From Bacillota bacterium (GTDB taxonomy: Bacteria; Bacillota; DTU030; DUMP01), in the NCBI GenBank assembly GCA_012735455.1, contig JAAYHG010000198.1, forward strand, positions 1 to 6,696: a stretch of DNA of 6,696 nt, in the 5' to 3' direction. A program made the translations under genes and the position numbers. The notes under the pieces are model-generated. The model was not told where the DNA came from, searched no databases, and worked only from the letters and a program-made list of their open reading frames with translations. Positions 1 through 1,812 of this stretch are shown here, in pieces; positions within the stretch are counted from its first letter, which is position 1, and each line of letters opens with the position of its first letter.

Positions 1-606
1 CCGCAGACGCCGGATGTGAACGTCCACGGTCTTGGAATCCCCAAAAAAGTCGTATCCCCAAAGGCGCTCCAGCAGCATCTCCCGGGAAAAGACACGCCCG
101 GGGTTTTTCATCAGAAGCTCCAAGAGCTCGAACTCCTTAGGGGTAAGGTCCACCAAGCGCCCACCGGCGGTAACCTGATGGCGCTCCAGATCTATCTGTA
201 GGCGGCCACGGCTGAGGACCTGGCCTTCCATTTTACCCAGGCGGTCTACCCTGCGAAGGATAGCCTTGATCCGGGCTACAAGCTCACGCGGGTTAAAAGG
301 CTTGGTGAGGTAATCGTCGGCTCCCAGCTCCAAGCCAAGGATCTTATCTATGTCCTCATCGCGGGCAGTGAGCATGATGATGGGAACAGAGGTGGTGCGT
401 CGTAGCTCGCGGCAAACCTCGAAACCGTCACGCCCCGGCAGCATGATATCCAGAACGATCAGGTCCGGCCGCTCGGAGGCGGCCAGGGCTAGGGCCTCGT
501 CACCATCGCCGGCGCTTACTACCCTGAAGCCGGCCTTCTCCAAGTTAATACGAACAAACTCCACTATGGTAGCTTCGTCATCCACCACCAGGATCTTTTC
601 GGCCAT
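1..606 (-). CDS. OmpR/PhoB-family response regulator, WalR/PhoP-like (C-terminus cut by window edge)
   Basis: DNA-binding response regulator of a two-component system, phosphorylated by a partner histidine kinase that is not in the window. The 202 visible residues start at an ATG preceded by a strong GGGGAGGT-type ribosome binding site. Receiver domain about 3-118: acidic pair D9-D10, phosphoacceptor D53 in LDIMLPG, switch T80 in MLTAR, and K102 in LTKPF. The winged-helix effector domain begins around 130 and includes LTPKEFELL (about 154-162), WGYDFFGD (183-190) and the recognition-helix segment TVDVHIRRLR (193-202), where the window ends. Full-length family members are about 230 residues, so roughly 25-30 are missing. 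The WGYDFFGD...TVDV signature resembles WalR of Bacillus, while LTPKEFELL and TVDVHI also resemble PhoP, so I do not assign a symbol. A kinase gene would be expected just beyond the left edge. Expression probably starts at the promoter at 784-812, giving a leader of about 170 nt. Confidence 0.96.
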   Translation of the reverse strand, partial: MAEKILVVDDEATIVEFVRINLEKAGFRVVSAGDGDEALALAASERPDLIVLDIMLPGRDGFEVCRELRRTTSVPIIMLTARDEDIDKILGLELGADDYLTKPFNPRELVARIKAILRRVDRLGKMEGQVLSRGRLQIDLERHQVTAGGRLVDLTPKEFELLELLMKNPGRVFSREMLLERLWGYDFFGDSKTVDVHIRRLR

Positions 607-826: not shown

Positions 827-851
827 AAAAAAAGAGCGCGGTTAGCCGCGC
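827..851 (-). terminator. Intrinsic terminator, minus strand
   Basis: Read on the minus strand, the stem GCGCGG and CCGCGC closes a 4-nt loop CTAA and is followed by TC and then seven T residues (833-827). This is a textbook rho-independent terminator. No protein gene on the minus strand ends nearby: the closest upstream minus-strand gene is cheR, which ends at 1807. The terminator therefore ends either a short RNA that starts inside this intergenic region or antisense read-through from cheR across the deacetylase gene. Confidence 0.75.
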
Positions 852-889
852 ATATCTGAGAGGGGGTTCAAAGGTTTTCGCTTGGGTTC
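827..889 (-). ncRNA. Candidate small RNA of about 63 nt
   Basis: A minus-strand extended -10 (TGGTATTAT, 904-896) predicts a start near G889, and the intrinsic terminator ends at about 827. The RNA between them would be about 63 nt. It has a mostly unstructured 5' part with two UUGAACCC motifs exactly 20 nt apart (complements of 864-871 and 884-891), then a CCCCCUCUC segment, then the terminator hairpin. C-rich single-stranded segments of this kind are used by some Gram-positive small RNAs to pair with G-rich ribosome binding sites. The CCCCUC run could pair with GAGGGG in the deacetylase ribosome binding site (1059-1064), but that match is short. No coding potential is seen and I do not recognise a known RNA family. 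Function is inference only. Confidence 0.4.
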
Positions 890-891
890 AA
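864..891. repeat. Pair of GGGTTCAA direct repeats, 20-bp period
   Basis: The octamer GGGTTCAA occurs at 864-871 and 884-891, two helical turns apart. A weaker TTCG at 877 lies in the same 10-bp phase as TTCA at 867 and 887. The repeats fall inside the candidate small RNA, where they read UUGAACCC, so they could matter in RNA as repeated pairing sites or in DNA as a protein site. Confidence 0.45.
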
Positions 892-895
892 TGTA

Positions 896-904
896 ATAAT
901 ACCA
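896..904 (-). promoter_or_regulatory. Extended -10 promoter element, likely activator-dependent
   Basis: The minus strand reads TGGTATTAT, an extended -10 (TGn plus TATTAT, five of six matches to TATAAT). The position where a -35 would sit, 17 bp upstream (about 919-924), has no TTGACA-like sequence and falls inside the 11-bp-phased repeat array. A missing -35 replaced by activator sites is the usual layout of promoters activated by PhoP/PhoB-type regulators. The predicted start is near 889. Confidence 0.45.
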
Positions 905-1068: not shown

Positions 1069-1812
1069 ATGCGCGTCTTTTACATCCCGCTGCCCACCAG
1101 GCGGCTAAGGCGCCGTTTGTTAGCTGCTGTGTTAGCCCTGACTTTGACGGGACTGCTGGTTCTTTCACTCAAAGGGATACAAGAACTAACCCCTATTCCG
1201 GCCACTGGACAGAGCGGCGACCCTGTTTTTCAGGTTGACATCAAGGAACCTCTGGTAGCCCTTACCATTAACGTCGCCTGGGGAGAGGACTTTCTCCCCG
1301 GTCTCTTGGCTGCTTTTGAAGACTATGGCGTCAAGGCAACCTTCTTCATAGTAGGGGACTGGGCAGAGCAATTCCCGGACTTGACACGCAACATAGCCAC
1401 AGAAGGCCACGAACTGGGGAATCACTCCTGGTCTCACCCCTACCCAACCCAGATCCCGGCAGAAGAGTTGAAAAAAGAAATAGTGCGCACGGAAAAGCTG
1501 CTGGTAGAGCTGGCAGGAAAAAGGCCTGCTCTTTTTGCACCGCCCTACGGGGAGTGGGATAAACAGGTGGTACAGACAGCAGCCGAGGCCGGTTACCGCA
1601 CTATCATGTGGAGCGTGGACACCATAGACTGGCAACAGCCCGGCGTAGGGATAATTGCCGAGCGGGTACTAAACAACATTCAGCCTGGCGGGATTGTGCT
1701 TATGCACCCCACAGAGCAAACCGCCCAAGCCCTACCGCTGATTCTTGACGGCCTCAAGAAAAAAGGGCTCAAAGCAGTAACGGTAAGCGAGCTTCTTAAC
1801 GCCGCCTCATAG
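1069..1812 (+). CDS. NodB-fold polysaccharide deacetylase-like protein, membrane-anchored (YlxY/PdaB-like)
   Basis: A 247-residue carbohydrate esterase family 4 protein, expected to act on cell-wall or surface polysaccharide outside the membrane. An arginine-rich N-terminus (R11-R16) followed by a hydrophobic segment (about 17-34) forms a signal peptide or anchor. The NodB domain spans about 62-245. Motif 1 is degenerate: TINVAWGED (66-74) replaces the usual TFDDG, so the catalytic Asp position is N68. The zinc motif HSWSH (119-123) is intact. Motif 3 is APPYG (157-161) without the usual Arg, motif 4 is DTIDW (184-188), and motif 5 is LMH (211-213). The INVAWG form is, from memory, typical of the YlxY-like subgroup, so the change is probably inherited rather than a recent defect. 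Whether it deacetylates is uncertain. It is tail-to-tail with cheR, overlapping by 6 bp. The upstream region carries the regulator box, but no clear promoter for this gene was found. Confidence 0.9.
   Translation: MRVFYIPLPTRRLRRRLLAAVLALTLTGLLVLSLKGIQELTPIPATGQSGDPVFQVDIKEPLVALTINVAWGEDFLPGLLAAFEDYGVKATFFIVGDWAEQFPDLTRNIATEGHELGNHSWSHPYPTQIPAEELKKEIVRTEKLLVELAGKRPALFAPPYGEWDKQVVQTAAEAGYRTIMWSVDTIDWQQPGVGIIAERVLNNIQPGGIVLMHPTEQTAQALPLILDGLKKKGLKAVTVSELLNAAS

Follow-up and report, generated by a model that had tools for sequence, protein, structure and literature searches.

The DNA analysed here (the window) is the whole of contig C137, 6,696 bp in length, from an incomplete 1.68-Mb genome. 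At one end lies the gene for an OmpR-family response regulator, here termed RR1 (positions 1–606, minus strand), which is incomplete at the contig end, and its divergent neighbour is a polysaccharide deacetylase gene (1069–1812, plus strand), both assignments coming from Pfam and NCBIfam searches. The gap of approximately 460 bp between the two genes contains a compact unit on the minus strand, beginning with a direct-repeat array of four sites (950–912) that resembles the boxes of WalR/PhoB-family regulators. The half-sites, TGTAAT (950–945), CGTAAA (939–934), CGTAAT (928–923) and TGTAAT (917–912), are separated by N5 spacers and keep an exact 11-bp register (TGTAAT-TAGAG-CGTAAA-AATAG-CGTAAT-GGGTA-TGTAAT). 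The array has no mismatch to the four-site pattern, which none of 200 dinucleotide shuffles matched even with two mismatches allowed. An extended -10 (TGG-TATTAT, 904–896) without a -35 comes next, separated from the array by exactly 10 nt, and the predicted +1, G889, follows 6 nt past the -10.

The small RNA predicted to start at this position would be about 61 nt long (889 to approximately 829, minus strand), as judged from the onset of conservation at the predicted +1 and from a covariance-model match. Its first part is a C-rich segment, GAACCCAAGCGAAAACCTTTGAACCCCCTCTCAGAT (889–854), which folding predicts to be largely unpaired: folded alone, positions 893–857 are unpaired (MFE 0), and a 65-nt fold contains a weak five-pair hairpin inside the 3' half of the segment. 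The unit closes with an intrinsic terminator, GCGCGG-CTAA-CCGCGC followed by TCTTTTTTT (851–827), recognized by a terminator scan, by folding (stem z = -2.9) and by covariation. The array, the extended -10 lacking a -35 and the terminator named in the original prediction are thus all present on the minus strand, and the unpaired state that it proposed for the C-rich segments agrees with the predicted fold. Taken as a single sequence the case is weak, because chance alone would give the terminator scan 0.4 such sites in this stretch, and it is comparison with related genomes that decides.

Conservation and distribution of the predicted RNA gene

When 41 genomes were searched at the DNA level, the segment turned up at 79–82% identity in each of the seven other genomes of the same family, and a shorter piece of it in two of five from another family of the class (hereafter the second family). 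When the eight same-family genomes are aligned, 35 of the 36 positions counted from the predicted +1 are invariant; identity outside this core is 23% upstream of the array, 49–51% between the -10 and the +1 and 28% past the terminator. The half-sites of the array are 84–100% conserved as against 36–56% for the spacers (seven genomes, G005 having been omitted because of one extra base between its -10 and +1), and the 10-nt gap between array and -10, together with the TGN that precedes the -10, is readable in all eight. An edge of conservation at the predicted start, and sites conserved above their spacers, are what a transcription unit would be predicted to display, and it is on this conservation, not on single-sequence statistics, that we take the RNA unit to be more than a chance arrangement.

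A covariance model (R1), built from eight sequences with the window excluded, matches the window at 823–888 with 75.5 bits. Such a search had been proposed together with the original prediction, and the model finds matches in all 13 genomes of the class: a main copy in 12 of them, at 53–92 bits, and a divergent paralogue (32–33 bits) in G012, besides its main copy, and in G008, where it is the sole copy. The paralogue occupies a different locus, has a four-site array of its own and lies beside a gene that by eye resembles a membrane transporter. All 12 main copies from the 13 class genomes searched share a core of 20 nt, AAAACCTTTGAACCCCCTCT, without any difference; members of the second family differ in the 5' third of the RNA and keep AAAACCTTTGAACCCCCTCT unchanged. 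The repeated GAACCC of the original prediction stands in part: no main copy of the 12 departs from its second occurrence, GAACCCCC, but the first is lost in the second family. It had also been proposed that conservation confined to the terminator hairpin would speak against an RNA gene; the comparison shows that the array, the -10 spacing and the C-rich core are conserved as well, and the reading survives.

Across the phylum, 29 of 398 genomes match R1 at E <= 0.001 in a search whose filters lose weak matches: the 13 of the class and 16 of the 385 beyond it. The latter matches score 22–26 bits, and scores above 26 bits are confined to the 13 class genomes. Four of the outside matches were viewed for array and core (L045, L047, L049 and L051) and have neither an exact core nor an array, L047 having a similar CCTTTTAACCCC; three others (L046, L048 and L050) match model positions 30–66 only, i.e. 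the terminator part. An 18-nt version of the core occurs in 14 stretches of the GTDB collection. Nine of these represent this RNA, the array being visible in eight and one being cut by a contig end; the nine public records with the same RNA are metagenome assemblies. The remaining five are on contigs of other organisms, where by eye neither an array nor a matching terminator is present.

In the terminator stem, 98 of 98 cells are paired across 14 sequences and four of the seven pairs have changes on both sides, counts that lean towards the model because the alignment was fitted to it. None of 500 shuffles reached the observed values for cells paired, cells with double changes or covariation score; the number of double-changed pairs was reached by 27 of the 500 and that of further pair types by 109, so that two of the five measures are not clearly above shuffles. 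Searches of Rfam gave no match in the window up to E = 1, and none of 13 relatives reached a gathering threshold. The two sub-threshold matches, CyaR (28.8 of 47 bits, E 0.21) and ncr1241 (28.5 of 60 bits, E 0.68), both lie over the RNA of locus L036. A search of openly licensed PMC papers found no description of the RNA, and the earlier remark that it was not recognised as a known family is in keeping with these results. We consider it highly likely that the unit is transcribed as an RNA gene, one that is conserved throughout the class and has no counterpart above threshold in Rfam. Its compact form, with a regulator box in front, a terminator at the end and no protein gene preceding it, is as first proposed, at a length of about 61 nt.

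The regulator array and its likely regulator

The four-site pattern, with at most one mismatch, was found 13 times, distributed over 12 of the 13 class genomes (one array being counted twice, in shifted register), all of them at promoters of the RNA or of its paralogue; the reversed pattern, used as a control in the same 13 genomes, was found nowhere. The exception is G009, in which the array is present with two mismatches. A three-site pattern places 24 of its 28 occurrences at the same promoters, the other four being scattered, and its reversed control gave none.

PMC4168254 gives the WalR consensus as TGTWAH-N5-TGTWAH and places the Streptococcus mutans VicR site TGTAATN5CGTAAT, from gbpB, in the highest affinity class; WalR/VicR boxes are also treated in PMC9210968. 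The array agrees with this box, sites 1 and 4 being exact fits. Sites 2 and 3 begin with C in the window, and with T, C or G in relatives, so adjacent half-site pairs in the window carry one or two mismatches; a single mismatch is also found in the published VicR site. It is likely that a regulator of the WalR/PhoB type activates the RNA, in line with the original prediction of a response-regulator-activated RNA.

The model closest to RR1 is that of YycF/WalR (NF040534), against which four full-length relatives score 284–294 bits, below the cut-off of 340, and the shortened copy in the window 248.9 bits. The same four relatives score 237–252 bits against PhoB (TIGR02154), also below the cut-off (296.2), and the next-nearest models after YycF/WalR are MtrA, RpaB, PhoB or VanR. 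The best match to a solved structure, determined for one relative, is RegX3, with whose recognition helix that of RR1, KTIDVHIRRLREK, aligns well. RegX3 is a PhoB-type regulator, and regulators of the PhoB type use 11-bp direct repeats. The kinase of RR1, here HK1, covers the whole WalK model in G009 and G010 with scores of 437–443 against a cut-off of 725, and reaches 361–368 of the 400 bits set for PnpS, 90–92% of the cut-off.

A second regulator/kinase pair lies further along in G001, G004 and G010. Its regulator, RR2, comes closer to the YycF model (320–331 bits in G001 and G010, cut-off 340), and the genes that follow the pair are presumably yycH and yycI. In two of the loci viewed (L065, 7670–19001, and L068, 3356–11882), both WalR-type regulator/kinase pairs stand in one cluster with lipoprotein genes between them, and the second pair alone has the appearance of a canonical WalRK-YycHI system, the YycHI part being presumed. 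Because of the scores of RR1 and HK1 and the closer WalR match of RR2, we call RR1 a WalR/PhoB-type paralogue, whose signal may be related to the envelope or to phosphate. By eye, no Pst or Pho genes were seen around the RNA/RR1 loci viewed, nor any Pho genes around a third OmpR-type regulator in the G001 sample.

A possible though clearly less favoured explanation is that the regulator acting at the array is RR2, the WalR of canonical appearance some 8 kb away, rather than the adjacent RR1. The fit of the array to the published WalR/VicR consensus and the higher YycF scores of RR2 are in its favour, as is G004, which keeps the array and RR2 without RR1. Nevertheless, RR1 is adjacent to the RNA in 11 of 12 loci, and its recognition helix aligns well with that of RegX3, of the PhoB type with its 11-bp direct repeats. 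RR1 is the most likely activator.

Candidate targets and mode of action

The ribosome-binding site of the neighbouring deacetylase gene, which had been suggested as a target, is not supported as one: 75% of 714 sampled genes of G001 do at least as well as its predicted duplex in the window's own genome (-15.2 kcal/mol), and over 11 genomes this share ranges from 3% to 90%. Better candidates lie elsewhere. A search for the complement of the core, GAGGNGGTTCAAAG, with at most one mismatch gave 49 places, 12 of which are the RNA itself. Such sites are overall not more numerous than reversed ones (37 versus 34 places). Among the 36 distinct other places, nine lie near starts in sense orientation, defined as up to 90 nt upstream; eight of these were assigned by script and one, L174, was added by hand, its called start being too early. 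Eight of the nine precede genes that by eye encode lipoproteins, as compared with none of the six near-start places among the 34 of the reversed control (Fisher p = 0.003; 0.05 with each family counted once). These genes encode GerM-domain proteins (G000, G001, G004 and G006), DUF3798 proteins (G005 and G007) and, by eye, a TctC-like and a DctP-like binding protein. Pfam confirms the DUF3798 and GerM ('Germane') domains, and a periplasmic-binding-protein domain in a LivJ-like protein.

Duplex energies were compared over equal windows, with 714 genes of one relative, G001, as background. For the DUF3798 mRNA (-60 to +30), pairing reaches -38.8 kcal/mol in G005 and -34.8 kcal/mol in G003, in each case as strong as in one of the 714 genes, and -31.5 kcal/mol in G007 (8 of 714); the homologue in G002 does not stand out (132 of 714), the site being present in three of the four genomes in which the gene was found. 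The predicted pairing spans the Shine-Dalgarno sequence and, in G005 and G003, the first codons too. The LivJ-like mRNA of G006 gives -46.3 kcal/mol between -100 and +30, a value reached by none of the 714 genes, and is ordinary between -60 and +30; its site, with 21 complementary letters approximately 50 nt before the start, is found in G006 only. At that locus (L066, 3446–3466; G006:C78), RNA positions +7 to +27 are matched by a perfectly complementary stretch upstream of the LivJ-like lipoprotein gene, which may represent either a target site or a fragment that was captured.

For the GerM mRNA, seven same-family genomes give -25 to -31 kcal/mol, matched or beaten by 8 to 78 of the 714 genes (the gene was not extracted from G007), and two GerM genes of the second family do not stand out (196 and 304 of 714). 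In the leaders of G003 and G005, positions altered from A to G can still form G-U pairs, and one change in G002 breaks a pair. The GerM 5' UTR is itself strongly conserved (GGGAGGTTCAAAGGCATATAACC..AAGGGGGTGCCC; L172, L173, L174, L176, L231, L232 and L234). It may form a hairpin around the Shine-Dalgarno sequence and may be a regulatory element in its own right, and its conservation may have reasons other than pairing with the RNA. No candidate target is conserved in all genomes compared.

In an unbiased 28% sample of G001, analysed with a simple ORF finder and a lipoprotein pattern that admits some false members, lipoprotein genes have the better sites (27 genes, p = 0.016; 0.03 without GerM); with a stricter lipoprotein set the two values are 0.09 and 0.16. 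The differences seen when GerM is left out are attained by four and seven of 200 shuffled RNAs, and an energy version of the test gives p = 0.03 (20 genes), as against 0.13 for the reversed RNA. A general trend towards lipoprotein targeting is thus no more than suggestive. Several individual candidates were discarded. The gene with the best ungapped score of the 714, atpD, is not conserved as a target, AtpD orthologues being found in four genomes only, and neither the PorG-like gene with the second-best score nor glyA is conserved. Apart from the RNA itself, a search with a 16-nt complement yielded 19 places, 12 of the 18 viewed being clearly inside or antisense to genes; a 19-nt search yielded nine, of which two were viewed.

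The best candidate targets are accordingly mRNAs for surface lipoproteins, i.e. DUF3798, LivJ-like and GerM proteins, with putative sites at or upstream of the Shine-Dalgarno sequence. Antisense pairing at ribosome-binding sites is, in our estimate, somewhat more likely than not as the mode of action. It is also conceivable, though improbable, that the RNA acts by binding a protein, as a sponge or decoy, the invariant 36-nt segment being the protein site. Invariance at 35 of 36 positions exceeds what a short antisense seed needs, and no universally conserved target was found; against it stand the largely unstructured nature of the segment, the several strong complementary sites at Shine-Dalgarno sequences and a C-rich composition like that of known anti-Shine-Dalgarno RNAs.

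Relation to the regulator gene and to known systems

The RNA lies on the same strand as the regulator gene and upstream of it in 11 of 12 main-copy loci, an arrangement that would also be expected of a 5' leader or attenuator, in which most transcription ends at the terminator and read-through feeds the regulator. We think this very unlikely. Downstream of the terminator is a promoter-like sequence for the RR1 gene, TTGAAG-N17-TATACT (812–784, minus strand), for which a scan of the window found one case with 0.8 expected by chance; the sequence is kept between terminator and regulator gene in seven of eight same-family genomes. Because the regulator gene has its own promoter-like sequence, we conclude that the RNA is not the leader of RR1. 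Moreover, terminator and regulator motif are 94–297 nt apart in ten loci and, with a gene intervening, 1083 nt apart in G005; G004 keeps the RNA with no regulator gene found downstream; and the paralogue sits at another locus. That the unit is instead a gene for a tiny peptide (MNPSENL) can practically be dismissed: ATG AAC CCA AGC GAA AAC CTT TGA is readable at the 5' end in G002, G003 and G007, but in place of the ATG stand TTG (the window and G004), GTG (G005), ACG (G001) and TCG (G006), the reading frame is lost in the second family, and conservation is as high at third positions and beyond the stop as elsewhere.

Some features of these loci deserve mention in their own right. In G005 (L067, 8175–8840) the gene between the RNA and regulator genes encodes, by eye, a HypB/UreG-like GTPase, which is seen at this place in none of the other loci viewed. 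In G004 (L070, 7640–8062) the RNA gene and the regulator promoter are present and the adjacent regulator and kinase genes are missing downstream, which may reflect a deletion or an assembly fault. Several relatives have an inverted repeat, GCGGCC...GGCCG, in the spacer of the RR1 promoter that may be the operator of another factor.

The nearest known kind of RNA appears, by analogy, to be the CiaR csRNA family of streptococci, the likeness being one of architecture and not of membership. As described in PMC3091779 and PMC8186281, the csRNAs are short RNAs (50–218 nt; csRNA9 has 60 nt and one stem-loop) activated by a two-component system; their promoters are the strongest of the regulon and transporter-type membrane proteins are among the tested targets. 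The CiaR box is NTTAAG-N5-TTTAAG, its second repeat standing ten nt from the -10 (PMC3091779). The csRNAs have an unpaired segment complementary to the Shine-Dalgarno sequence and AUG; the C-rich segment here, predicted to be largely unpaired, has complementary sites at Shine-Dalgarno sequences, and its core contains no complement of AUG. The N5 repeats and the terminator are shared with the unit described here, in which the ten-nt distance to the -10 recurs in the aligned loci and the predicted transcript is likewise a short unit closed by an intrinsic terminator. The repeat itself is not that of CiaR: the half-sites here are TGTAAT/CGTAA instead of TTTAAG, and there are four of them as opposed to two. 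Regulator subfamily, host group and RNA sequence differ as well, and the predicted RNA of the window is encoded beside its presumed regulator.

With the WalR/VicR regulon the unit shares TGTWAH-N5-TGTWAH half-sites of the gbpB type (PMC4168254 and PMC9210968); it differs in having four tandem half-sites and an RNA gene as output. No WalR-activated small RNA was found in the search of openly licensed PMC papers. Likeness to the PhoB/PnpRS type lies in the proximity of HK1 to the PnpS cut-off, the match of RR1 to RegX3 and an activator that would replace the -35. PhoB activates in place of a -35. RR1 is, however, below the PhoB cut-off, and no Pst or Pho genes are seen around it. The proposed repression of uptake genes, including those for substrate-binding proteins, resembles that exerted by the enterobacterial small RNA GcvB. 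The targets of GcvB include LivJ and OppA, and its pairing region is GU-rich. Regulator, phylum and pairing region (C-rich in the present case) all differ, and no sequence relation to GcvB was seen.

Our working model is that a phosphorylated response regulator of the WalR/PhoB family, most likely the neighbouring RR1, would bind the four-site array, stand in for the missing -35 and switch the RNA on, whereupon the unpaired C-rich segment would pair with the ribosome-binding sites of selected mRNAs, probably including some for surface lipoproteins, and repress their translation. Transcription of the unit, activation by RR1 and antisense repression are what we infer from the comparisons above. 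As a whole, the description of a 61-nt trans-acting small RNA, switched on by a WalR/PhoB-family regulator that is most likely the adjacent one and likely to repress mRNAs by pairing, is in our view probably correct. It is tempting to speculate further, if with considerable doubt, that this two-component system has the RNA as its main and nearly exclusive output, and that the RNA silences surface lipoproteins (nutrient-binding proteins and the germination-type GerM) by pairing across the Shine-Dalgarno sequence and first codons, which would make it the Gram-positive equivalent of GcvB, under the control of a sensor for envelope state or phosphate. The system would then act mainly post-transcriptionally, because in these genomes full four-site arrays stand only at the promoters of the RNA or its paralogue.

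Regulatory RNAs of the little-known lineages of Bacillota are, in our judgement, hardly described. Here the comparison of 13 class genomes was by itself enough to define a complete small RNA gene, from the activator array and the start site through an invariant segment for pairing to a terminator that covaries, and the covariance model could become an RNA family; lipoprotein targets that can be tested are named. The unit is also a further, seemingly unrelated instance of the csRNA-type arrangement of an N5-repeat regulator ten nt from the -10 and an anti-Shine-Dalgarno RNA, which suggests that this arrangement arises repeatedly.
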